This document shows positions 1 to 34,560 of a stretch of 34,640 bases of DNA, piece after piece. Within the stretch, counting starts at the first letter, position 1. Each line of letters opens with the position of its first letter. Source of the DNA: a virus. The notes under the pieces are model-generated. The model ran no database searches and was not told where the DNA came from. It saw only the letters and a program-made list of their open reading frames with translations. A program made the translations under genes and the position numbers. The stretch lies in the IMG/VR virus record IMGVR_UViG_3300043446_001490, positions 1 through 34,640 of that record; one strand, written 5' to 3'.

Positions 1-490
1 TATAGCCTTCACCGTAGGTTACTTGGTTCTCGCACGCGGTGTCGTACGCTACGTCAGCGTCTGACATGTACTCAATATGTCGCACGATGCCGTCGAGCAC
101 CTCTGCGACCTCGACGTCGGCTTGATCGTTAACAGGTATGACCTTGCCGCTTGGCCGGTTCTGGCGCTGCTCGTTAGTCACTTGCCTAACGTGCTGCGGT
201 AGCTTGTTTATCGTCAAACAAGGTCTTGCATTGACTGTTTGGCCTTGCACCGACCCACGCGTTGCCAACACATCTTGCGGCCATTGCCACTGATTGTCGG
301 GCGAGCCAGCCATAAACCGCAGGTCGTCAAGCTCATCTTCGCGGCTCTCCGAGTACGCGCCGATCGCTTGGCGTAACCGATCGCGCATCAGTTGTAGCGT
401 GTCGCGGTGGTCCTTCTGGTCTGGCCCTCCGCGCGCAGATACTTTACCCGCGCCTTCAATACCTGTAGGGTCTTGCTTAAGCGTTGCCAT
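1..490 (-). CDS. Portal protein, P22 type (N-terminal 163 residues; runs off the left edge)
   Basis: The portal forms the dodecameric ring at the head vertex through which DNA is packaged and ejected. The visible part starts MATLKQDPTGIEG and contains DDLRFMAGSPDNQWQWP, LTINKLP and RQVTNEQRQNRPSGKV, all typical of the N-terminus of P22-like portals. The rest, usually about 500 to 600 more residues, lies beyond base 1. The ATG overlaps the stop of the preceding small gene as TAATG, which indicates translational coupling. Position after the large terminase agrees with P22-type order. The family call is from remembered motifs; partial status is seen directly. Confidence 0.9.
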   Translation of the reverse strand, partial: MATLKQDPTGIEGAGKVSARGGPDQKDHRDTLQLMRDRLRQAIGAYSESREDELDDLRFMAGSPDNQWQWPQDVLATRGSVQGQTVNARPCLTINKLPQHVRQVTNEQRQNRPSGKVIPVNDQADVEVAEVLDGIVRHIEYMSDADVAYDTACENQVTYGEGY

Positions 491-21279: not shown

Positions 21280-23349
21280 TTAAACTCCATAGCGCAAGGT
21301 CAGCAACGGTGTGCTGCTCGATGAATAAGATACGGCGGGGAAAGTCGAAGGTAAAGTGCCGTATGTTTGACTAGCGGTAATCAACGTATCCGCTGTCCCT
21401 ACTGCGCTGCATCCTATCGTAGCCAACGCAATATCACTAGGCGTTCCAGCCCTTACCGTCGCACCACTGGCGTTAGCAAGCAAAATAAGCGCGTAAGTAC
21501 CTGATGGCAACGGTTGCGAGATAGTGATCTCTTTAGTGCCTGTAGTGGTTAACCCAACAGCCCCAGCGTCTAATACTTTAGTTGTAGGTATACCATTTTC
21601 CATACGATATATACCAAGGTACGCAAAAACACCTGTACCTGCGGTAGTGACCGTGCAGCCTATCTTTGTCCAAAGTTGATGTTGTCTTACCGTAAACGGC
21701 ATGACATACATGATGTTAGCTGCCACAGCCAACGTGCCTGCTGCCGTGGCAGGCGATAACGTTTCCCCTGCGTAAAATCGACCTGACGCATAGCCGCCTT
21801 GGTCAAACACATCAAACGCGCCAGGATTGTCACGGAAGATTTGTGATACTGATTCTTGACCGGACGAGACGTAGATAGCCTGACCAGACGTCCACGTATT
21901 GCCGTTCATCTGATTGTCGCTAATTGTTACGTACTGCGGTGCTGATGATGTGCCGTAGAAGTACACCGCAGCGTAAGCGTCGTTAGCGGGCGCCCACATG
22001 TTGTTGCCAACGATCAAGATGTAGCGCGGTTGGTTAGGGCTGGCCGTCAGCGAGATAACACTAACGCAACTGGCGTTGGGAAACGATGCGCTATCACGTC
22101 GTGGGTTGTAAAGCGAATTGCCGGTAACCGTAACGAATTGCGTGTCAGTTAACGCAATACAATAATCGTCGCAGTCGCCAATAAAGTTACCATTAATTGT
22201 GTGATAGTTACCGCCTGCCTCAATACCTGACGCGGAGATGTTCTTTTTAGTTTGGCCGCTAATCCAGTTATCCGAAATAACGTTGTTGCTGCCGGTCATA
22301 AAAATACCGGATTCTTTATTGTTGACTAGATAATTACCAATAATCGACAAACGATTACCGTTAGCGTACATAGCCGACCAGTTGTTGCTAATAAAGCTAC
22401 TCTCACTAACGCTTACGTCGTACGATATGGTCGTGTCGGCGGCTGGACCCATCCAAATAGCGGCGCCGCCCTCAGCCAACACACTATCATTGCCGCACTC
22501 AGTGAACAGACAATTGTTAACGCCGACAGCGACGCAACCTGCTATGGCAATACCAATGTACTGCACGTTATAGACGTAACAGTTAGTGATGTTAAGGTCT
22601 TCAACCTTAGCAAACGACACCAGTTCAGCCGTGCGTGGGCCTAAGTTATTACCGTCAAACTTGATGTTGCTGACGCTAATACCTTTGTCAGTGTAGACGT
22701 ACGCCGTGCCGGTTTGATTAGGGTTTTTAAGTAGCGGCGTTGTCGCGCCAAGCGTGTTCTTGGCTTTGATAATCGACGTGGCAGGCGAGTCGCCGTACAT
22801 GTTAGTGCCACTGTAGATTGTCAAACCTGTGCAAAGATACGTGCCTGCTGGAACGTACAAGGTTTTGCCTGTCGCCGCAGTCAGCGCGTTTTGAAACGCC
22901 ACAGTGTCGTCGGTCGTACCGTCGCCCGTGGCACCAAAGTCTTTAACACTGATAGTCTGACGAAGTTTGGCCTGCACAGTCGTTGTGACAGCGCCTGCAC
23001 CAGACGGCGAATAACCAATCAGCGATGACCCCGACGCAGCAGCTAGCGACGCGCTCAACGCGTCAATCAAACCTTGCGGCGTAGAGATGTTATCAACCGT
23101 CCAAATCGATACGTCGTTGCTATCCTTAAGAATAAATTTGTATGATGACGTACCTAACCAGACGTTTGCTTCGCCACGGACGTCTAAGATAATCGGGTTG
23201 GTGTTGGCCGTTAGCCCCGTCGAATCGGTGTAGGTCGCTAGCGGTGTAGTTGTACCTGCTTGATAGGTGTACAGTTTGCCGCCTACCAGCAATTCCCCAC
23301 TCGATGAGAAAAACTGAAGTTTTGGGCTAGGTGATAGAACAGTTGTCAT
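21280..23349 (-). CDS. Tailspike with beta-helix, probable polysaccharide depolymerase (689 aa)
   Basis: Starts MTTVLSPSPKLQFFSSSGEL, with AAGGACTAAT before the ATG; the frame upstream would overlap the fibre gene and is rejected. The N-terminal domain (1-105, LVGGKLYTYQAGTTTPLATY) resembles head-binding tailspike domains. ISVKDFGATGDGTTDDTVAF (about 142-161) opens a pectate-lyase-like right-handed beta helix extending to about 500, full of short N-rich turns. The final 160 residues form a beta domain that may bind sugar or trimerise. P22 gp9 has 667 residues, a close match in plan. Catalytic residues cannot be assigned by eye. Confidence 0.85.
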   Translation of the reverse strand: MTTVLSPSPKLQFFSSSGELLVGGKLYTYQAGTTTPLATYTDSTGLTANTNPIILDVRGEANVWLGTSSYKFILKDSNDVSIWTVDNISTPQGLIDALSASLAAASGSSLIGYSPSGAGAVTTTVQAKLRQTISVKDFGATGDGTTDDTVAFQNALTAATGKTLYVPAGTYLCTGLTIYSGTNMYGDSPATSIIKAKNTLGATTPLLKNPNQTGTAYVYTDKGISVSNIKFDGNNLGPRTAELVSFAKVEDLNITNCYVYNVQYIGIAIAGCVAVGVNNCLFTECGNDSVLAEGGAAIWMGPAADTTISYDVSVSESSFISNNWSAMYANGNRLSIIGNYLVNNKESGIFMTGSNNVISDNWISGQTKKNISASGIEAGGNYHTINGNFIGDCDDYCIALTDTQFVTVTGNSLYNPRRDSASFPNASCVSVISLTASPNQPRYILIVGNNMWAPANDAYAAVYFYGTSSAPQYVTISDNQMNGNTWTSGQAIYVSSGQESVSQIFRDNPGAFDVFDQGGYASGRFYAGETLSPATAAGTLAVAANIMYVMPFTVRQHQLWTKIGCTVTTAGTGVFAYLGIYRMENGIPTTKVLDAGAVGLTTTGTKEITISQPLPSGTYALILLANASGATVRAGTPSDIALATIGCSAVGTADTLITASQTYGTLPSTFPAVSYSSSSTPLLTLRYGV

Positions 23350-23357
23350 ATTAGTCC

Positions 23358-26300
23358 TTAAAGTGCGGCGATGACAAAAGCCAACAATTCGCTGTAGCGT
23401 ACACCTAAACGCGTTTGTGAAGAACCGTCTGATGTAGCCCATGTATCACTGCAAAATAAACCGTATTTTGACGCATCTAAGCCTTCTGCGGCAAATGCTT
23501 CTTGAACTTCTTGCGCAATAACACCAAAATGAATCCGCGCCTCGTCGCCTTTGGCCTCTACAGCGTCGTTCCACTTAAACGCCCGTATGAGCTTTTTGAC
23601 CCGTTGAGCTGTGCGTTGCTCGGCGTCTGACAAATCTCTGATCTGCTGCTTTTGGCTTGCGTCTGATGTATTGATCGTACCTGTGGTTGCGTAGACCACG
23701 GTATATCTAAACGACGCAGTACCTAGCGCGCGGACGTTGTCTGTAGTGGGGCGCCAAGTACCTGTATCTCCAGCAAAAATAATACTACCTGGGTATGACC
23801 CAGACGCCAACAACACACCATTAACACCACCTAAAACCGCATAAGAAGTGTCTTCATAAAAATAAGCGTTAGATGTCTTGTAAGTAGCACCAACAAACGA
23901 GTTGCTAGTGCTTGAAAACGTTTTAACGCCTGATATGGTTTGGGTGTCAGTTGTTGTGACAATACCAGCGCCTGTAAGTGATGACGCGCCTGTGCCACCG
24001 TTAGCTACAGCAAGTGTTCCCCCAAGCGTCAACGTTCCTGATGAGGTAATTGGAGAACCACTAAAAGTCAAGCCGGTAGTGCCGCCAGAAGCAGCTACGC
24101 TACTTACTGAACCTGTGGCAGCAATCGTTATTGAACCTGCGCCGTTAGTAACACTAATATTAGTTCCGGCGGTGATAGTTGCTAACGAATAGCCAGTACC
24201 GTTGCCTATTAAAAGTTGACCGTTAGTAGGTGTTGAGGTAACGCCCGTACCACCATAACCAACACCGATCGTTGATCCGTTCCACGCACCTGCGCTTATC
24301 GCGCCGGTTAAATTAATATTTTGAGCGTAAACAGTTGTCCAACGTTCCGCGCTAGTACCAAGGCTGTAAGTTGTAGTGACAAACGGTCTAAATGCAGTTG
24401 AATTAGCTACATAAAGACCTGTGCCTGGAAACGTAGCGCCGCTAGATAATGTGACGCCTCCCACGCCACCTACAACTGCGTAAGTCGTATCTTCACCAAA
24501 GTAGGCGTTTGACGCTGTTCCGTTAGATGTTGAATATTGCGTACCAACAAAACTGTTGGTTAGACTCGTAAATGTTTTAGCCCCAGAAATAGTTTGAGTG
24601 CCTGTTTTAGTTACGATACCCGCGCCATCTAGCGTGGTTGAACCTGTACCACCATTAGCAACAGCAAGCGTACCCCCAAGCGTCAATGTCCCTGACGTAG
24701 TGATAGGACCACCCGTAAGCGTCAATCCTGTCGTGCCACCGCTGCCACTAACGCTGGTTACAGTCCCACCTGAACCTGTTGAGGTAAGCGTACCGCCAGC
24801 AAAACTTAAACCCGATCCAACCGTAACGTTGCTAAACCCGCCAGAACCGTTGCCGTAAAGAATAGACGTTCCACTAGTTGCAGGGGCGTAGTCGGTCCCT
24901 GAAGTTGCGTTACTAAACCCGCCCGTGCCATTACCCTTAAGAATACTGGTGCCACTAGTTGCAGGGGCGTAGTCGGTTCCAGACACGGCGGCGCTTATGG
25001 CAGTGCCGTTGCCTTTAAGCACACCTGTGATGGTTGTGGATAGTGTAATTGCTGGGGTTGTTGTAGCGTTAGCAACCGTTCCAGCCAATCCATTAGCAGA
25101 AACGACCGAAACAGAATTAACACTGCCCGTACCTGCGGACGCCCAAACAAATGAAGTGCCATTCCATTGAAGATAAGTGCTAGTTACGGTTGGTGCCGTA
25201 ATAAAAGAAGTAACGCCTGATCCGGTTTGATAATTAATTTGATTGGCAGAACCACCAGCAATAGCTGCTGCTGTTCCTGTTGTGTTTTGATTTAGTGTTG
25301 GAACATCAGACGCTTGAATAGCAGACATGCTGACATTTGTGCCGTTTCCTCGCAAAAATTGTGCTGAAGTAACTGAGCCAGCCAAAGCATTAAGCGCTGT
25401 TTGTTGAGTTGTAGCTCCAGTACCACCATTAGCGATTGCAACTACGCCGGTTACATTTGATGCCGTTCCCGTCGTATTCTGGTTAAGCGTAGGAATGTCG
25501 GCGGCTACGATGGCTCGAAAAGTTGGCGCACCAGAAGAACCATTAGGAGCCGCTAAGAAATAGTTAGCTGTTTTGCTAGCGTAAGGATTTTGCGTGTCGC
25601 CGTAGTTAGCGTTTAATGAAATAGTCGGTGTAGCACCACCACTTGACGCAATTGGTGCAGTTCCAGACACTGACGTAACACCGGAACCTGCTGGCGTACC
25701 CCATACAAAAGCCGATCCATTCCAACCTAAATAAGTAGAAGATGAAACAGGAGCGGTAATGAATGAAGTTGCGCCTGCCCCTGTTTGATACGCGATGCGA
25801 TTTGCTGCGCCGCCTGCTAAATTAGTTGCCGTGGTTGCTGTAGCTGCGTTACCGGTCGTGTTTTGATTAAAAGTGGGCCACGTCTGACCTGCTGCAAACG
25901 TGATTGCGCCGGTCATTGTACCGCCAGCTAAAGGTAGCTTAGTAGCGTCAACTATTGTAATGTCGGCAGTTCCATTAAATGAAACACCGTTAATAGTGCG
26001 AGCTGTTTGAAGCGCCGTTGCTGTAGCTGCATTACCGCCAATAGATAAACTGCTTGCTGTGCCGGTCAACCCCGTGCCAGGCCCACTGAACTGCGTAGTA
26101 GCCGTAATGGTTGTTCCACGAACTGTAGACGCGGTTGTAGCACCAACAGGCGTGCCATCAATAGCCCCGCCAGTAATAGATACATTGTTAGCGTTTTGCG
26201 TGGACATGGTTCCTAAACCGGAGATGTCCGTGTTAGGAATAGTTGACGCTGCTGTTAACGCGCTAGTACCGCTACCTTTAACATAACCAGTTAATGTAGT

Positions 26301-27035
26301 TGCTCCAGTGCCACCATTAGCAACCGCAAGCGTACCTGCCAGTGTTAACGTGCCACTAGTAGTTATAGGTCCACCACTAAACGTAAGTCCTGTAGTGCCT
26401 CCTGACGCGTTTACTGAAGTAACAGACCCACCACCAGCAGTTGAAGTGATAGTGATAGTGCCAGCGCCGTTGGTAATTGATATACCTGAACCAGCAGTTA
26501 AATTTGCAGATACATAGCCTGAACCGTTACCTATTAACAAAGCACCATTAGATGGTGTTGTTGTAATACCTGTACCACCATTAGCAACGTTAAGCGTACC
26601 GGACATCGTTATCGTGCCGGACGTTGTGATTGGTCCACCACTAAACGTTACGCCCGTTGTACCGCCCGACACATCTACGCTAGTGACCGTACCAGAACTA
26701 CCACTAGATGTTGTAGTTGGTATAACAGGAGGTAGTAAGTCCGCGTAATTGCTAGTTATAATTTGTACAATTGACGGCGATAAGGCTTGATTGTCGGGTA
26801 TTGATATGAAAGGTACAGGAACCGGCGCGGGATCAGTCAAACTGTTAGTTAACAATATGTTGACGTTTTGATCGGGCGGTCCAACTTGAATGTCGTCTAA
26901 GGTAATTTGATTGTTACCTTGTCCAACTAACGTAAACAAATTTAAAAAGAACCGATACCATTCACGCGAAATAAGCCCCGTACGCTCATCAATAATGCTG
27001 ACGCGGGGGGCGGGTATGTTAGTTACGTTAGGCAT
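23358..27035 (-). CDS. Long tail fibre with repeats and C-terminal S74 chaperone domain (1225 aa)
   Basis: The N-terminus (VSIIDERTGLISREWYRFFL) is the type found at the virion-attached end of fibres. Four large repeats share SGGTTGLTFSGGPITTSGTL and AVANGGTG. The C-terminal 103 residues (from 1123) are a peptidase S74 intramolecular chaperone: SDASQK supplies the Ser1124-Lys1129 pair, followed by FGVIAQEVQEAF and RLGVRYSELLAFVIAAL. After trimer folding the chaperone cuts itself off before Ser1124. The gene overlaps the hub stop by eight bases. It likely serves host recognition alongside the tailspike. Confidence 0.9.
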   Translation of the reverse strand: MPNVTNIPAPRVSIIDERTGLISREWYRFFLNLFTLVGQGNNQITLDDIQVGPPDQNVNILLTNSLTDPAPVPVPFISIPDNQALSPSIVQIITSNYADLLPPVIPTTTSSGSSGTVTSVDVSGGTTGVTFSGGPITTSGTITMSGTLNVANGGTGITTTPSNGALLIGNGSGYVSANLTAGSGISITNGAGTITITSTAGGGSVTSVNASGGTTGLTFSGGPITTSGTLTLAGTLAVANGGTGATTLTGYVKGSGTSALTAASTIPNTDISGLGTMSTQNANNVSITGGAIDGTPVGATTASTVRGTTITATTQFSGPGTGLTGTASSLSIGGNAATATALQTARTINGVSFNGTADITIVDATKLPLAGGTMTGAITFAAGQTWPTFNQNTTGNAATATTATNLAGGAANRIAYQTGAGATSFITAPVSSSTYLGWNGSAFVWGTPAGSGVTSVSGTAPIASSGGATPTISLNANYGDTQNPYASKTANYFLAAPNGSSGAPTFRAIVAADIPTLNQNTTGTASNVTGVVAIANGGTGATTQQTALNALAGSVTSAQFLRGNGTNVSMSAIQASDVPTLNQNTTGTAAAIAGGSANQINYQTGSGVTSFITAPTVTSTYLQWNGTSFVWASAGTGSVNSVSVVSANGLAGTVANATTTPAITLSTTITGVLKGNGTAISAAVSGTDYAPATSGTSILKGNGTGGFSNATSGTDYAPATSGTSILYGNGSGGFSNVTVGSGLSFAGGTLTSTGSGGTVTSVSGSGGTTGLTLTGGPITTSGTLTLGGTLAVANGGTGSTTLDGAGIVTKTGTQTISGAKTFTSLTNSFVGTQYSTSNGTASNAYFGEDTTYAVVGGVGGVTLSSGATFPGTGLYVANSTAFRPFVTTTYSLGTSAERWTTVYAQNINLTGAISAGAWNGSTIGVGYGGTGVTSTPTNGQLLIGNGTGYSLATITAGTNISVTNGAGSITIAATGSVSSVAASGGTTGLTFSGSPITSSGTLTLGGTLAVANGGTGASSLTGAGIVTTTDTQTISGVKTFSSTSNSFVGATYKTSNAYFYEDTSYAVLGGVNGVLLASGSYPGSIIFAGDTGTWRPTTDNVRALGTASFRYTVVYATTGTINTSDASQKQQIRDLSDAEQRTAQRVKKLIRAFKWNDAVEAKGDEARIHFGVIAQEVQEAFAAEGLDASKYGLFCSDTWATSDGSSQTRLGVRYSELLAFVIAAL
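24871..24977 (-). repeat. Tandem 81-bp duplication inside the fibre gene
   Basis: A 26-base stretch (CCACTAGTTGCAGGGGCGTA then GTCGGT) is identical at 24871-24896 and 24952-24977, 81 bases (27 codons) apart. The protein shows the same: DYAPATSGTSIL followed by KGNGTGGFSN or YGNGSGGFSN. A recent in-frame duplication that keeps the repeat register. Confidence 0.85.
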
Positions 27036-30296: not shown

Positions 30297-31505
30297 TTAA
30301 CCCCAGAGACGAACAGCCATTTGAGGACGAATCACGCTGTAGCCGTACAGCACGTCAATACGGCAGGGCATACGATCATTGTTGATGTCGTACTGACGAA
30401 CAATACGCATCGAGATGCCGTTATGAACCTGACGCGATGCCATGTCAACGCCTTGCGGCATCATCAAATCGGCAGTAGCGAACGTGATAGCGTCCTTGTG
30501 GTAGACGAGGTTTTGTGGGTACTGCGACGATGCAGCGCCGACAAACACGACAGCTTTGCTGGTAGCGGGAAGGCTAGCCACGGTTGCAAGCGCGTTGCTG
30601 GACGAGTACATCGGAGCAACCGTCAAGTTACCTGCGCCAGAACCGTTAAGCGTAACGTCAGTCGTTACAACAAACTGGAACAGCGAACCAGTTGATTCAC
30701 GGGTCTGTGGGTTAACAGCGTAGCAGTCAGCCACGGTGAATACGTCGCCAGCCTTAACCGTTGCGCTAGCACCTGCGCCAGTGATGGCGATGGTGGTGGC
30801 ACCTTCGCTGGTAACAGCCGCAGAAGTCGTGCCGCCGGTAGCCGTGCGCGAGCCGGTCGTGAACTGCTTGATCGACTGAGACATGTTGATCTCATCAAAC
30901 CCAAGCACGCCGACTCCCATCATGCCGTTCTTGAACTGACGGCTGATCGTGTCGGTGGGGTTGAAAAGACCTTTCATGCCTTCAACCAAACCAGCGTTAG
31001 CAGCAGGATTGACTGTAGCGTAACGGGGCGACATAACAGCAGCGTTTTCGTTCAGTTTCTGTTGAGCTTGCAACAGAACCAACGACGTGCCAGGTGTCGT
31101 GCCAGGCGTACCAACTGTGTTACCGATGTTCTGGTAAGAGTTAGCAACGTCTGCATCGATGCTAGCGGCAAGCTGGCTAATACGAGGCTTGAGCACGCGC
31201 TCTGCAAAATCATCCAACTGCAAGGTCAATTCAGCAGAGGTGAAGTTAACGCCAATGTGCTTTTGCGAAGCCACAGTCAACGTGGTGTACTGCTCGTTGT
31301 CGCTTTGGACTTGGAGTGCTGCACCGTCGGTTACAAGTGCGCGGTCCGGTAAGCGGATACGCAAGGTCGAACCAATTTTGGCGCCTTCAACAGCAAAGCT
31401 ATCGTCGTACTGACGGTTAACGTTGCGGGTTAAGACAAGATTATTCTCAAGGATTTCAAGCGCCTTGCGAGTAATCATGTCGATGGTAAGTAGACTATTT
31501 GCCAT
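30297..31505 (-). CDS. Major coat protein, P22 gp5-like (402 aa)
   Basis: Builds the icosahedral shell. Starts MANSLLTIDMITRKALEILE, followed by NLVLTRNVNRQYDDSFAVEG and GSTLRIRLPDRALVTDGAAL, the signature opening of P22-type coats. The block LTLQLDDFAERVLKPRISQL is also typical. A central region (about 210-300, GTTSAAVTSEGATTIAITGA) probably forms an inserted beta domain like the P22 I-domain. P22 gp5 has 430 residues. A strong AAGGAATTGTC precedes the ATG. The scaffold gene lies directly upstream. Confidence 0.92.
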   Translation of the reverse strand: MANSLLTIDMITRKALEILENNLVLTRNVNRQYDDSFAVEGAKIGSTLRIRLPDRALVTDGAALQVQSDNEQYTTLTVASQKHIGVNFTSAELTLQLDDFAERVLKPRISQLAASIDADVANSYQNIGNTVGTPGTTPGTSLVLLQAQQKLNENAAVMSPRYATVNPAANAGLVEGMKGLFNPTDTISRQFKNGMMGVGVLGFDEINMSQSIKQFTTGSRTATGGTTSAAVTSEGATTIAITGAGASATVKAGDVFTVADCYAVNPQTRESTGSLFQFVVTTDVTLNGSGAGNLTVAPMYSSSNALATVASLPATSKAVVFVGAASSQYPQNLVYHKDAITFATADLMMPQGVDMASRQVHNGISMRIVRQYDINNDRMPCRIDVLYGYSVIRPQMAVRLWG

Positions 31506-31525: not shown

Positions 31526-32317
31526 TTAGCGGACTCGGTTTTGAGCTTCCCATTTCTTAATCTGCCGTTGACGCTCTGCTTCAATCCACTCTGATGTTGA
31601 CATTTCTTTAATCGAACGCGGGTCAGTCGTGTCTAAAACTCTTGCGTTGCCACCCCGTGGGGTAACCGGCTGAATCGGCGCGGGAGCGCTCGTTGATTTC
31701 TTAACAGGAGGATTTTCGCTCAACTTCGCTTCAATCTTCCCAATTTCTTTGGCCTGCAAAAAAGGCGACAACTTGGCAATACGATCAGCTTCTTTCGGGT
31801 TAGAACCAAGGTAATACGCCACCTCAGGGCCAATGTCAGACGCTTGAATCGTTTCGGCCATCACTGTCGTGATTGGAAGACGCGGGTTGTACGCAACTTG
31901 CTCAAAATCTTCGTACTTAGTCCGTGCTTCTTCTTCGCGCTCGTGATAGACCTCAAGAATTTCGGCTCGCTGTCTTTCTGCATCACGTCGGGCAAGTAAT
32001 TCTGCTGCTTTTCTTTCGGCTAACGCTTCTGCGTATTCCTCAGTTGAAGCAAAACTATCTTGCGCTGGTAATTCACTAGACAGCATTTCAGGCGTTGAAG
32101 CCCTCAGCTTTTGTTCCCGTTCCCACTTGCGTTGCTCTCTTGCAAGTCGTTTGCTGATCATCGCGTCAAGTTCAGCCTGGGTAAATCGCTTTTCCTCAGT
32201 CTGCTCTGGTGCTTGTTCAGCGACCTCCGGCGCATTTTGTGCAATTTCCGTGGTGGCCGTCACCTCGGTTGCTGGCGCGGATTCAACTTCCGCTAAGTTT
32301 TGATTTTCGTCGCTCAT
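31526..32317 (-). CDS. Scaffolding protein (263 aa)
   Basis: Guides coat assembly and then leaves or is recycled. The N-terminus is acidic and disordered-looking (VESAPATEVTATTEIAQNAP), followed by a helical charged middle (MISKRLAREQRKWEREQKLR) and a basic C-terminal helix EWIEAERQRQIKKWEAQNRV, as expected for coat-binding tails of scaffolds. P22 gp8 has 303 residues. Placement immediately before the coat gene and behind a strong promoter fits the role; sequence homology itself is not visible by eye. Confidence 0.85.
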   Translation of the reverse strand: MSDENQNLAEVESAPATEVTATTEIAQNAPEVAEQAPEQTEEKRFTQAELDAMISKRLAREQRKWEREQKLRASTPEMLSSELPAQDSFASTEEYAEALAERKAAELLARRDAERQRAEILEVYHEREEEARTKYEDFEQVAYNPRLPITTVMAETIQASDIGPEVAYYLGSNPKEADRIAKLSPFLQAKEIGKIEAKLSENPPVKKSTSAPAPIQPVTPRGGNARVLDTTDPRSIKEMSTSEWIEAERQRQIKKWEAQNRVR

Positions 32318-32393: not shown

Positions 32394-32903
32394 CTAAGCT
32401 GTTAACGCAGCAACTTTAGCTTGAAAATTTTTAACGCGTATTTCTAACGCCGCAGTTTCGTTTTTAAGTATTTCCCGTTCGTTGTCTAGTGCTCGTTGAG
32501 CTGCTAACAATTGAAATTCAGCATTTTCTAGGGTTTTCTCTTTTGCGGCGACTATTTTTTCACGGGCGGCGACTGCTTTTTCACGATTAGTGGTGTCGTT
32601 AATCAACCCGTTCATATCATTGGTTATTTTTTGAGCTTTTTCAACAGCTTCATTAACAACACGTTTAGCTGCTTCTTGATCGTATTTAGCGTCTGCGCGG
32701 ATAGCTTCAGCTTCTTTTTTTGCTGCTTCAAGTTCTTGCGCAGCTTTCTTACGATCGTTCACTGCATCTTCTGCGGCTGTCAGCGCGCCTTGACGAATTG
32801 CTAGCTCGTCACGCAAAACTGCCATTTCAGCCAAGTCCTTAGGAAACTGCTTGGTGAAATAATCAACGTAATTCATCATTGGAGCATCATTAGAAATATT
32901 CAT
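32394..32903 (-). CDS. Coiled-coil protein, 169 aa, upstream of scaffold
   Basis: After a short N-terminus (MNISNDAPMMNYVDYFTKQF) residues 27-165 form one nearly continuous charged helix (VNDRKKAAQELEAAKKEAEA and many further Ala/Glu/Lys heptads). GAGGT lies five bases before the ATG. A rod-like protein next to the scaffold could help head assembly or be a head fibre; no family is recognised. Its stop abuts the scaffold promoter. Confidence 0.7.
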   Translation of the reverse strand: MNISNDAPMMNYVDYFTKQFPKDLAEMAVLRDELAIRQGALTAAEDAVNDRKKAAQELEAAKKEAEAIRADAKYDQEAAKRVVNEAVEKAQKITNDMNGLINDTTNREKAVAAREKIVAAKEKTLENAEFQLLAAQRALDNEREILKNETAALEIRVKNFQAKVAALTA

Positions 32904-32913
32904 GCTGACCTCA

Positions 32914-33219
32914 TTAAGAGTAGTAAGTAATGTTTAACTTAGCGCCAGCAGATTGCTCAATAAACTTAATTTGATTGATGTCGCCGTCGTATTGTAAGGT
33001 TACGCCTACAGCTAAAGGCATACCCACAGTAGCCGTAGGTGAAACACCATCATCCCGCCAACGAACAGCCTGCCCTTCGGGGGTAATAATAGCGATTCTA
33101 GGCGACCCCGCCAAGCCCGCAATGTCTTTTTGAGGTACAGTTAAACCTGTAGCAGAACTTAAGCTAGTGATCTGCTGGTACCCAAGTACCGAGGTAATTG
33201 CTTTAAGATTGATTGCCAT
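32914..33219 (-). CDS. Hypothetical protein, 101 aa
   Basis: Starts MAINLKAITSVLGYQQITSL; AAGGAG six bases upstream lies inside the last codons of the preceding gene, and the stop and start overlap as TGATG. The body contains many short strands (RIAIITPEGQAVRWRDDGVS, LAVGVTLQYDGDINQIKFIE). Its appearance is that of a small virion protein, such as a head-decorating or head-tail part. No known family identified. Confidence 0.7.
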   Translation of the reverse strand: MAINLKAITSVLGYQQITSLSSATGLTVPQKDIAGLAGSPRIAIITPEGQAVRWRDDGVSPTATVGMPLAVGVTLQYDGDINQIKFIEQSAGAKLNITYYS

Positions 33220-34178
33220 CAAAATCTCCTTCGTTCAGTAAACGATCTTAACTTAATTACTAATTGTTCGGCAGAGTCTAACGTGCCAAATTGATCTATA
33301 GCCGTTGCTAATTCTGCAATAACACCTTGAAGCGTTTGAGGTATAGATACTTGGTCTGTAGCAGTGCTTAGTTCCGCGATCAAGGATTGGAAATTTGCTA
33401 GCGTAACAACTTGATCAGAACCAGTTGCGAACTCTGAGATAAACGATTCGTAGGCTTGCAAAGCATCGAAATCATCAAAAACAGCGGCAAATTCACTAAT
33501 GTTGCCAATTTGTTCTTGAGCGCGTGAAGTTTCATCAGTAGCTGTAGCGTTTTCTTGAATATTTCCGCTGCCGTCAATACTTACCGACACTACATCTGAA
33601 CTTTGGCTAAATTCAACAACAGATGCTACTAAAGTATGAGTTGTTGAAATGCTATCGGTAGCTGTTGCAAATTCAGCTATAACGCCACCGATGAAAATAA
33701 CGGAATCACTCGCGTCAGATGAAGTGGCTGACTCTACAATTACTGCGTCTATAGGTAATAAAACATCTACACTGTCTGTGCCGGTTGCTGATTCATCGAC
33801 AGATGCTTGTTGAGCTATTAAGGAATCAGTCTCGTCAGATGCTGTTGCCGATTCAGATAGAAGATTTTGTGTTGTTAAACCGGATGATGAATTATCTGAA
33901 ATTGTTGATGTTTCTGTTGTGGCTACATCATAAGTAGCAAGCAAACTTACTGAGTCAGTGCCAGTAGCTGTTTCGGCTATGGCAGTTAAAGCACTAAGTG
34001 TTGTATCTAAAGAATCAGCGCCAGTAGCTGTTTCGGCTATGACGGATTGGTAAGCTAAATCAGAACTTATTGCGTCTGTTGCGGTAGCCGTTTCACTTAC
34101 TTGTCCTTCTACAGCAGGGGTAGCAGCTCCTGCTGTTGAAGCATAAGGTGTCTGTGCATAAGCGCTAAAACCGTACAT
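33219..34178 (-). CDS. Structural protein made of fourteen 20-residue repeats (319 aa)
   Basis: The 28-residue head (MYGFSAYAQTPYASTAGAAT) is followed by fourteen consecutive repeats of exactly 20 residues and an 11-residue basic tail KLRSFTERRRF. Each unit opens with E-x-A-T-x-x-D (for example ETATATDAISSD, ESATGTDSVDVL, EFATGSDQVVTL) and then has a less conserved hydrophobic-rich half. An exact period without gaps indicates a solenoid or a fibrous stack. Acidic, no Cys. Placed between tail/fibre genes and the scaffold, it may be a long head or tail appendage (inference). Confidence 0.85.
   Translation of the reverse strand: MYGFSAYAQTPYASTAGAATPAVEGQVSETATATDAISSDLAYQSVIAETATGADSLDTTLSALTAIAETATGTDSVSLLATYDVATTETSTISDNSSSGLTTQNLLSESATASDETDSLIAQQASVDESATGTDSVDVLLPIDAVIVESATSSDASDSVIFIGGVIAEFATATDSISTTHTLVASVVEFSQSSDVVSVSIDGSGNIQENATATDETSRAQEQIGNISEFAAVFDDFDALQAYESFISEFATGSDQVVTLANFQSLIAELSTATDQVSIPQTLQGVIAELATAIDQFGTLDSAEQLVIKLRSFTERRRF
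33255..34094 (-). repeat. Coding tandem array, 14 units of 60 bp
   Basis: Residues 29-308 of the protein. The units keep exactly 60 bases, but the bases have diverged, whereas the protein motif E-x-A-T-x-x-D persists. Old duplication under selection for repeat length is the simplest reading. Confidence 0.85.
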
Positions 34179-34179
34179 G

Positions 34180-34560
34180 TCATGCTATTTCAGAAACTTC
34201 AACTTCCACCCAGCTTGTTGTTGCTTCATCCCAGCTATATATCTTTCCGTCCTGCGGCATAGGTACAGGTGCATGCCATAAGCATGTATCTTCGTTCAGT
34301 ATCCACGATGTATAGGGTTTTGGAGGGATGAAAGCGTCTCTCTGTGGGTCGTATGTATAACCAATACCTGCGTAATTTTTTCGGAAATTACCGTTATACG
34401 ATGTTTGCTTCCAGTGCGGGTAACCACCTGACCAGTTCTGGAGAAACCACGCACCTTTCCATTCTTGCTCTTGACCGTTTTGATCCAGCAGTTCGTTGTT
34501 GTGAACAGCGTGTACCTCAAGCACCACGTTGTTCTGATCTAATTTTGCAAAGTGCGCCAT
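34180..34560 (-). CDS. Conserved phage protein, 126 aa, cyanophage/pelagiphage-type
   Basis: Starts MAHFAKLDQNNVVLEVHAVH, followed by HWKQTSYNGNFRKNYAGIGY and TYDPQRDAFIPPKPYTSWIL. This is a well-marked protein in many marine and freshwater phages, located among structural genes, with no established role that I know. It is rich in Trp and Tyr, consistent with a rigid small virion part. GAGGTTATCT precedes the ATG. Confidence 0.85.
   Translation of the reverse strand: MAHFAKLDQNNVVLEVHAVHNNELLDQNGQEQEWKGAWFLQNWSGGYPHWKQTSYNGNFRKNYAGIGYTYDPQRDAFIPPKPYTSWILNEDTCLWHAPVPMPQDGKIYSWDEATTSWVEVEVSEIA

Follow-up and report, generated by a model that had tools for sequence, protein, structure and literature searches.

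The locus and its genes

The stretch of DNA considered here (the window) comprises 34,640 bases of a virus record, and on its minus strand lies a gene, with an ATG start, for a 319-residue protein (33219..34178) whose translation contains fourteen gapless units of 20 residues each at residues 29-308 (33255..34094, minus strand). This repeat gene is tightly packed between its neighbours: the upstream gene, identified by its PHROG match as phrog_7759 (34180..34560, minus strand), stops one base before its ATG, and its own stop overlaps, as TGATG, the start of a downstream gene for a protein of 101 residues from its ATG (32914..33219, minus strand). There follow, also on the minus strand, genes for a 169-residue protein of heptad-like, coiled-coil-type sequence (32394..32903), a head scaffolding protein (31526..32317; phrog_8865, E 2e-31), and a P22-type coat protein (30297..31505; PF11651, E 4e-38). 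The small phrog_7759 protein is present in at least 593 viral-contig stretches, often near fibre-type genes, and seems to merit a name.

The coat and scaffold matches, together with those for P22-like adaptor and head-closure proteins (phrog_578, E 4e-134, and phrog_637, E 5e-9), identify the phage as a P22-type podovirus, and it also encodes a DNA-ejection protein. A pectate-lyase-like tailspike candidate is encoded by a separate ORF (21280-23442; Pfam match) and an S74-chaperone fibre by a gene at 23358-27035, inside which sits an 81-bp tandem repeat (window 24827-24977; 1.9 copies, 82% match). At the contig end, the portal gene is truncated to its start (2..490, minus strand), which matches that of two relatives, L017 and L032, where an accessory cassette comes next. 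The contig is cut inside this gene (window 1-490) and before phrog_7759 (34640), and relatives have several kilobases of receptor-binding genes there. In four close relatives (L009, L014, L016, and L022), the coiled-coil and scaffold genes are separated by approximately 1.5 kb of additional sequence, which is absent in the window, L002, and L004. From the gene context, we infer that the repeat protein is a structural component of the virion, as the initial annotation had proposed.

An array of fourteen divergent units

The division of residues 29-308 into fourteen units holds exactly: read from window position 34094 down to 33255, the array is 14 x 20 residues with no indels. At a lag of 20 residues, 86 of 260 positions are identical, while the highest count at any lag from 5 to 60 had a mean of 35 and a maximum of 48 over 5000 shuffled sequences. 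Similarly, the relaxed pattern E-x-[AS]-[TSQA]-x-x-D occurs 14 times, against a mean of 0.24 and a maximum of 3 in shuffles. The motif E-x-A-T-x-x-D had been placed at the start of every unit; its Glu (E1) and Asp (D7) are indeed present in 14/14, but the full motif is found in 10/14, with units 4, 9, 11, and 13 deviating.

It had also been observed that the bases of the units have diverged, which we can quantify as a mean identity between units of 31% for amino acids and 44% for nucleotides. The array is invisible to Tandem Repeats Finder. An origin by recent tandem duplication was considered and rejected, given that neighbouring units are 33% identical and distant ones 27-33%. As identity hardly drops with distance along the array, the latter is old or well mixed rather than recently expanded.

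The array is flanked by two short segments, delimited by comparison with relatives. The N-terminal cap (residues 1-28, 34095..34178, minus strand), where the structural model described below is of low confidence, reads MYGFSAYAQTPYASTAGAATPAVEGQVS and has an aromatic/small-residue motif common to relatives; others begin with FGFDPFSTAPFSA or GGWGSGTWGQAGWG instead. The C-terminal tail (residues 309-319, KLRSFTERRRF; 33222..33254, minus strand) is the sole basic segment of the protein, and most relatives have in its place a Trp-rich cap (LWELIDDSQTANWQNINDSQ). The latter forms the C-terminal 30-70 residues (e.g., L033:6515-7714 and L143:1934-3028), is built of repeats of about 11 residues (W-x-x-I-[DN]-[DN]-[ST]-Q-[TS]-[AP]-[NG]), and is without a Pfam name; it is possibly a sugar-binding or docking element.

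A family with a fixed period

Using the window protein, the neighbouring gene, an alignment, and one relative as queries, we collected 86 ORFs in 82 loci that contain the unit. These proteins hold 4-30 units each, and 927 of approximately 1000 unit spacings (93%) are exactly 20. The family consensus is E-[TS]-A-T-[GA]-[TS]-D-x-[VI]-S-[AS]-x-x-T-[LFY]-x-[AS]-[AS]-[VI]-[AS], and each of two motif patterns is present in at least 120 stretches of viral contigs. The build is modular: the array is preceded by an aromatic or Gly-rich N-cap, of which there are two main kinds, and followed by the basic tail or the Trp-rich cap.

The Trp-rich cap also leads to a second type of repeat. We surveyed 70 non-redundant proteins chosen by this cap and assigned their types with simple regular expressions, so that the following split is approximate. 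Units of the E-x-A-T-x-x-D type are present in 43/70, with a significant period of 20 in 39; another 19/70 carry a different type (T-G-V-x-A-x-G-x-V-G...), with a period of 20 in 11 and of 22 in 8, and 8/70 are unclassified. Proteins of the second type, with units such as ALTGVSASGAVGTVT (20 residues) or NVTVTGVQGTGQVGQVTV (22 residues), include those of L040, L048, L053, L054, L067, L186, L200, L206, and L207, among others, as well as L216:1150-2280. Judged by their sequences, arrays that are unrelated to each other appear to be interchangeable between similar caps. The strongest argument from sequence for approximately 20 residues as a structural step is that repeats of different type have equal length in front of a similar cap; with the spacings of the family itself, it supports the earlier suggestion that the strict period reflects a structural constraint.

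Searches of existing resources returned little. Pfam has no family for the repeat protein, and PHROGs gave one marginal match (phrog_29318, E 8e-4). In an annotated phage collection, there was no full-length match for the window protein or for its relatives in L143 and L117, and the protein of L033 was matched only through its Trp-rich C-cap, in the metagenomic phage DSL-LC04. Scans of GTDB genomes found no relatives of the repeat protein, and a search of the literature found nothing relevant on these repeats. Sequence-profile matches to the PDB were weak; the top one, at E 5e-5, covered a short part of the repeat region of a clostridial toxin and was set aside as a chance similarity of short repeats. 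The repeat family is real, widespread, and undescribed in uncultured phages, and in kind it would belong with the repeat-built fibre shafts already known from phages.

Exchange of whole units

Close relatives of this phage, with coat proteins 97-99% identical and the 101-residue downstream protein 97-100% identical, have repeat genes that are only 49-86% identical. Their unit counts are 6, 9, 10, 11, 12, or 14; for the six-unit relative (L032), the comparison runs downstream only as far as the coiled-coil gene. A variable number of repeats among relatives had been named in the initial annotation as a sign of a length ruler or of antigen-like variation, and the number does vary.

The differences fall at the edges of units. 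In comparison with L007, DNA identity rises from 0.27-0.47 to 1.0 at the edge between units 3 and 4 (last mismatch at nt 263, similarity from nt 264, and unit 4 beginning at nt 265). With L002, whose coat DNA is 88% identical, units 4-11 are 93-100% identical and mismatches resume from nt 748, unit 12 starting at 745; L004 has units 6-13 in common with the window gene. Whole-unit blocks are exchanged at unit edges, and some of these junctions may go back to one event in the lineage of the window itself.

Within units, selection is purifying: dN/dS of the repeat gene is approximately 0.21 (vs L002 and L004), with 0.10-0.18 in the terminal unit blocks, and diversity arises through the reshuffling and swapping of units. 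A dN/dS this low led us to reject antigen-like positive selection; with diversity coming from the swapping of units, the suggestion of antigen-like variation is not supported.

The accessory cassette and its relatives

In relatives, the interval between portal and scaffold has a recognisable order: the portal gene; genes for proteins of 122 and approximately 187 residues; Mtd_N-type, glycine-rich, and LamG-lectin genes in varying combination, with a 2OG-Fe(II)-oxygenase-like gene (so annotated in L217 and DSL-LC04); phrog_7759 or another small gene; and the repeat gene. Proteins resembling the N-terminal part of the major tropism determinant (Mtd_N) are found in this cassette at L033:4174-5097 and L103:2664-3587. 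In the related phage DSL-LC05, this interval encodes a tailspike together with a protein annotated as a pectate lyase, whereas the cultured Pseudomonas phage PAE2 has only one small gene there. From these contents, we take the interval to be an accessory receptor-binding cassette, so that the repeat gene is located where a tail-fibre or adhesin stalk would be sought.

In distant loci, the repeat gene follows an SU10-type adaptor and virion genes and lies directly upstream of genes that score as tail fibres, tail spikes, or structural proteins of the virion, with S74 chaperone or LamG domains in some of them. DSL-LC04 (OR003939) offers a positional analogue, annotated as hypothetical (CDS 59268-60398): it comes after the adaptor gene and before fibre-type genes, the next of which is annotated with an intramolecular chaperone domain, and it has a W/G-rich N-cap and a W-rich C-cap. 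It differs in its repeat, a 22-residue VTGVQGTGQVG type rather than the E-x-A-T-x-x-D unit.

It is the immediate neighbours, namely the 101-residue and coiled-coil proteins, the scaffold, and the coat, that could suggest a factor in head or tail assembly (a scaffold helper, a length ruler, or a decoration) with no role in adhesion. We consider this improbable: in the majority of distant relatives, the gene stands directly upstream of tail-fibre or virion genes and away from scaffold and coat, and PAE2 has a related coat without the cassette. Moreover, 6-14 units occur among phages with near-identical coats, so the repeat protein can be no measure of the head.

Some loci place the same units in a second gene. 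In L021, L108, L111, L113, L115, and L116, they come after an N-terminal RGFGFG segment and before a C-terminal part, which is of the LamG lectin kind in L113, Lcl_C in L111, and propeller-like in L021 and L116; in L158, they are placed after a Gly-rich segment. Units lying between an N-terminal segment and a lectin- or propeller-like part have the architecture of a stalk. Against a stalk reading of the window protein itself, no lectin domain is attached to it, and its C-terminus is a short basic tail.

The predicted fold

An AF2 monomer model of the window protein (from 31 sequences) has two strands per unit, 17..3 and 7..15, with a mean pLDDT of 65 (75-79 in the first units) and a pTM of 0.59. 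A divergent relative yielded the same strand pattern at a mean pLDDT of 53 and a pTM of 0.44; the two alignments have several members in common, and the runs are therefore not fully independent. These models, of modest confidence and from a method with a known bias, lend weak support to the earlier proposal of one solenoid turn per unit. It is important to remember that AF2 is documented to produce false beta-solenoids when given repeats of 20 residues, frequently with charges that are stacked and uncompensated (PMC11795689), and the predicted E/D ladder matches this pattern uncomfortably well. AF3 is free of this bias (PMC11795689). The authors of that study worked with perfect repeats and drew no conclusion on imperfect ones, whereas the units here are only 31% identical. 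On balance, we place the solenoid fold a little above even odds. If it is correct, fourteen turns of approximately 4.8 Å would give a length of approximately 6.7 nm, so the thin fibre of the initial annotation is better called a short stalk.

Foldseek searches of the PDB and BFVD gave no match with E below 0.05. At a probability of 0.93-0.98, BFVD gave unnamed proteins from uncultured Caudovirales phages, which are possibly members of the family.

Could the array instead be disordered, a weakly structured acidic linker rich in Ser, Thr, and Ala, in which the repeats are kept only through composition? Its low complexity and the modest AF2 confidence would fit, and other predictors can assign disorder to repeats that AF2 models as solenoids (PMC11795689). 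We nevertheless think it unlikely, since there are almost no indels over a large family, dN/dS is low, and one would hardly expect a flexible linker to hold a period of 20 in two sequence types. In addition, the repeat protein is on the folded side of a charge-hydropathy plot, Thr and Ser prefer even unit positions (permutation p 0.0007), and unit positions 15 and 19 are hydrophobic in 81% and 98% of cases. The odd/even pattern of hydrophobic residues alone was not significant (p 0.14).

A second alternative concerns the fold and would leave the role as a stalk unchanged. Phage tail-fibre and tailspike shafts are usually trimers, and the array could be such a shaft of three intertwined chains, as in a triple beta-spiral; every 20 residues would then form one repeat, and each unit would have a longer rise. 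Fibre genes accompany the cassette, and the swapping of units at a constant period would fit equally well. Known triple beta-spirals, however, have units of approximately 15-18 residues, and AF2 gives a solenoid in both runs, which is weak evidence given that only monomers were modelled. We would put a trimeric shaft at roughly one chance in a handful.

Resemblance to known solenoids and the question of calcium

Several known systems invite comparison. In the ice-binding region (region IV) of the Marinomonas primoryensis adhesin MpAFP (PDB 3p4g), 13 tandem RTX-like units of 19-21 residues form a Ca2+-bound beta-helix with one turn each and a half-turn of xGTGNDxu (PMC3492233). VIA-align superposes it on the first AF2 model with Z 25.3 and 2.7 Å over 272 residues, a superposition that rests on a model of modest confidence; the second model matched assorted parallel beta-helices (best Z 15.7), and MpAFP was absent among the top matches listed. 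The highest score for the first model (Z 27.9) was to curli CsgA (PDB 8c50), which likewise has two strands and one turn per repeat of approximately 20 residues, but at an rmsd of 8.6 Å that reflects a different twist, and none of the 31 members examined has a Curlin Pfam match. Trimeric beta-helix tailspikes and depolymerases (Sf6, HK620, and Phi92) have in common with our protein the receptor-binding cassette context and, as predicted by AF2, the parallel beta-solenoid; unlike them, the window protein is strictly periodic, has no catalytic domain that we could find, and, as with its family, no pectate-lyase or beta-helix Pfam match. Because the closest structural match is to a region that binds ice, we mention, as a resemblance only, that the T-x-T-x-T of unit positions 2, 4, and 6 on one face recalls the Thr ladders of hyperactive antifreeze proteins.

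The initial annotation had suggested that stacked Asp and Glu residues bind metal, and in our analysis metal binding by the array is plausible, while the holding of Ca2+ by the E1/D7 ladder in particular is speculative. In its specific form, this explanation envisages a Ca2+-loaded, RTX-like solenoid in which Ca2+ sits between adjacent turns, bound by the ladder, and in which the stalk does not fold until it is outside the cell. It is a special case of the stalk explanation, with which its confidence overlaps, and we regard it as a minority view. A3-T4-G5-T6-D7-x-V9 recalls the MpAFP half-turn (PMC3492233), and the 3p4g superposition points the same way. E1 and D7 are nearly invariant, the units of the family contain 14% acidic and 0.5% basic residues, and the net charge is about -44; a ladder of this kind with almost no basic residues would need charge compensation if buried.

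Other observations speak against calcium. At an E value of 0.01, none of 31 members has an RTX Pfam match, and instead of the RTX nonapeptide GGxGxDxUx there is one G-x-D-x-h half-turn per 20 residues. In comparison with MpAFP, the window protein is phage-encoded, has a strict period of 20 and no second Gly-Gly turn, and carries an extra invariant Glu, E1, with no counterpart in the MpAFP consensus. The second repeat type with the Trp-rich C-cap has 3.3% acidic residues, and metal therefore cannot be the general principle of these arrays. The absence of MpAFP from the top matches of the second model, and the stacking of charges as a known AF2 artefact (PMC11795689), likewise count against it.

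Proposed role and significance

We propose that the array is probably the length-adjustable, beta-rich stalk or shaft of an accessory virion protein in the adhesion apparatus, most likely with one solenoid turn per unit. We rate the stalk role somewhat more likely than the solenoid fold, as it is independent of how the units fold. Each 20-residue unit would lengthen the protein by the same step, most likely a single turn of a two-stranded beta-solenoid, giving a rigid stalk whose length is the unit number multiplied by a constant rise. Whole units could be added, removed, or swapped through recombination at the conserved E-x-A-T-x-x-D motif with the fold unbroken, and phages would thus be able to change the length or the surface of the stalk in a single step. 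The N-terminal aromatic segment and the C-terminal cap (Trp-rich in most relatives, RSFTERRRF here) presumably attach the stalk to the virion and to partner proteins, a direction of attachment that we offer as provisional.

A bolder version, which we regard as a long shot, combines the two themes. The array would be a calcium-gated solenoid, unfolded in the low-Ca2+ cytoplasm while the virion assembles and a stiff rod only after lysis, and the family a slot-in system in which arrays of different sequence but 20-residue geometry are swapped between fixed caps, tuning the reach of adhesion.

For annotators, the family would provide a name for many "hypothetical proteins," and for designers a modular, almost indel-free 20-residue repeat that has been recombined many times in nature. 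Phages with near-identical coats but strongly different repeat genes and cassettes would form a natural experiment in which the reach and geometry of adhesion can be set against the choice of host. If our reading is correct, a class of proteins that is very common in uncultured phages, though unnamed, would equip them with a stalk that is adjustable in length and made of interchangeable units.
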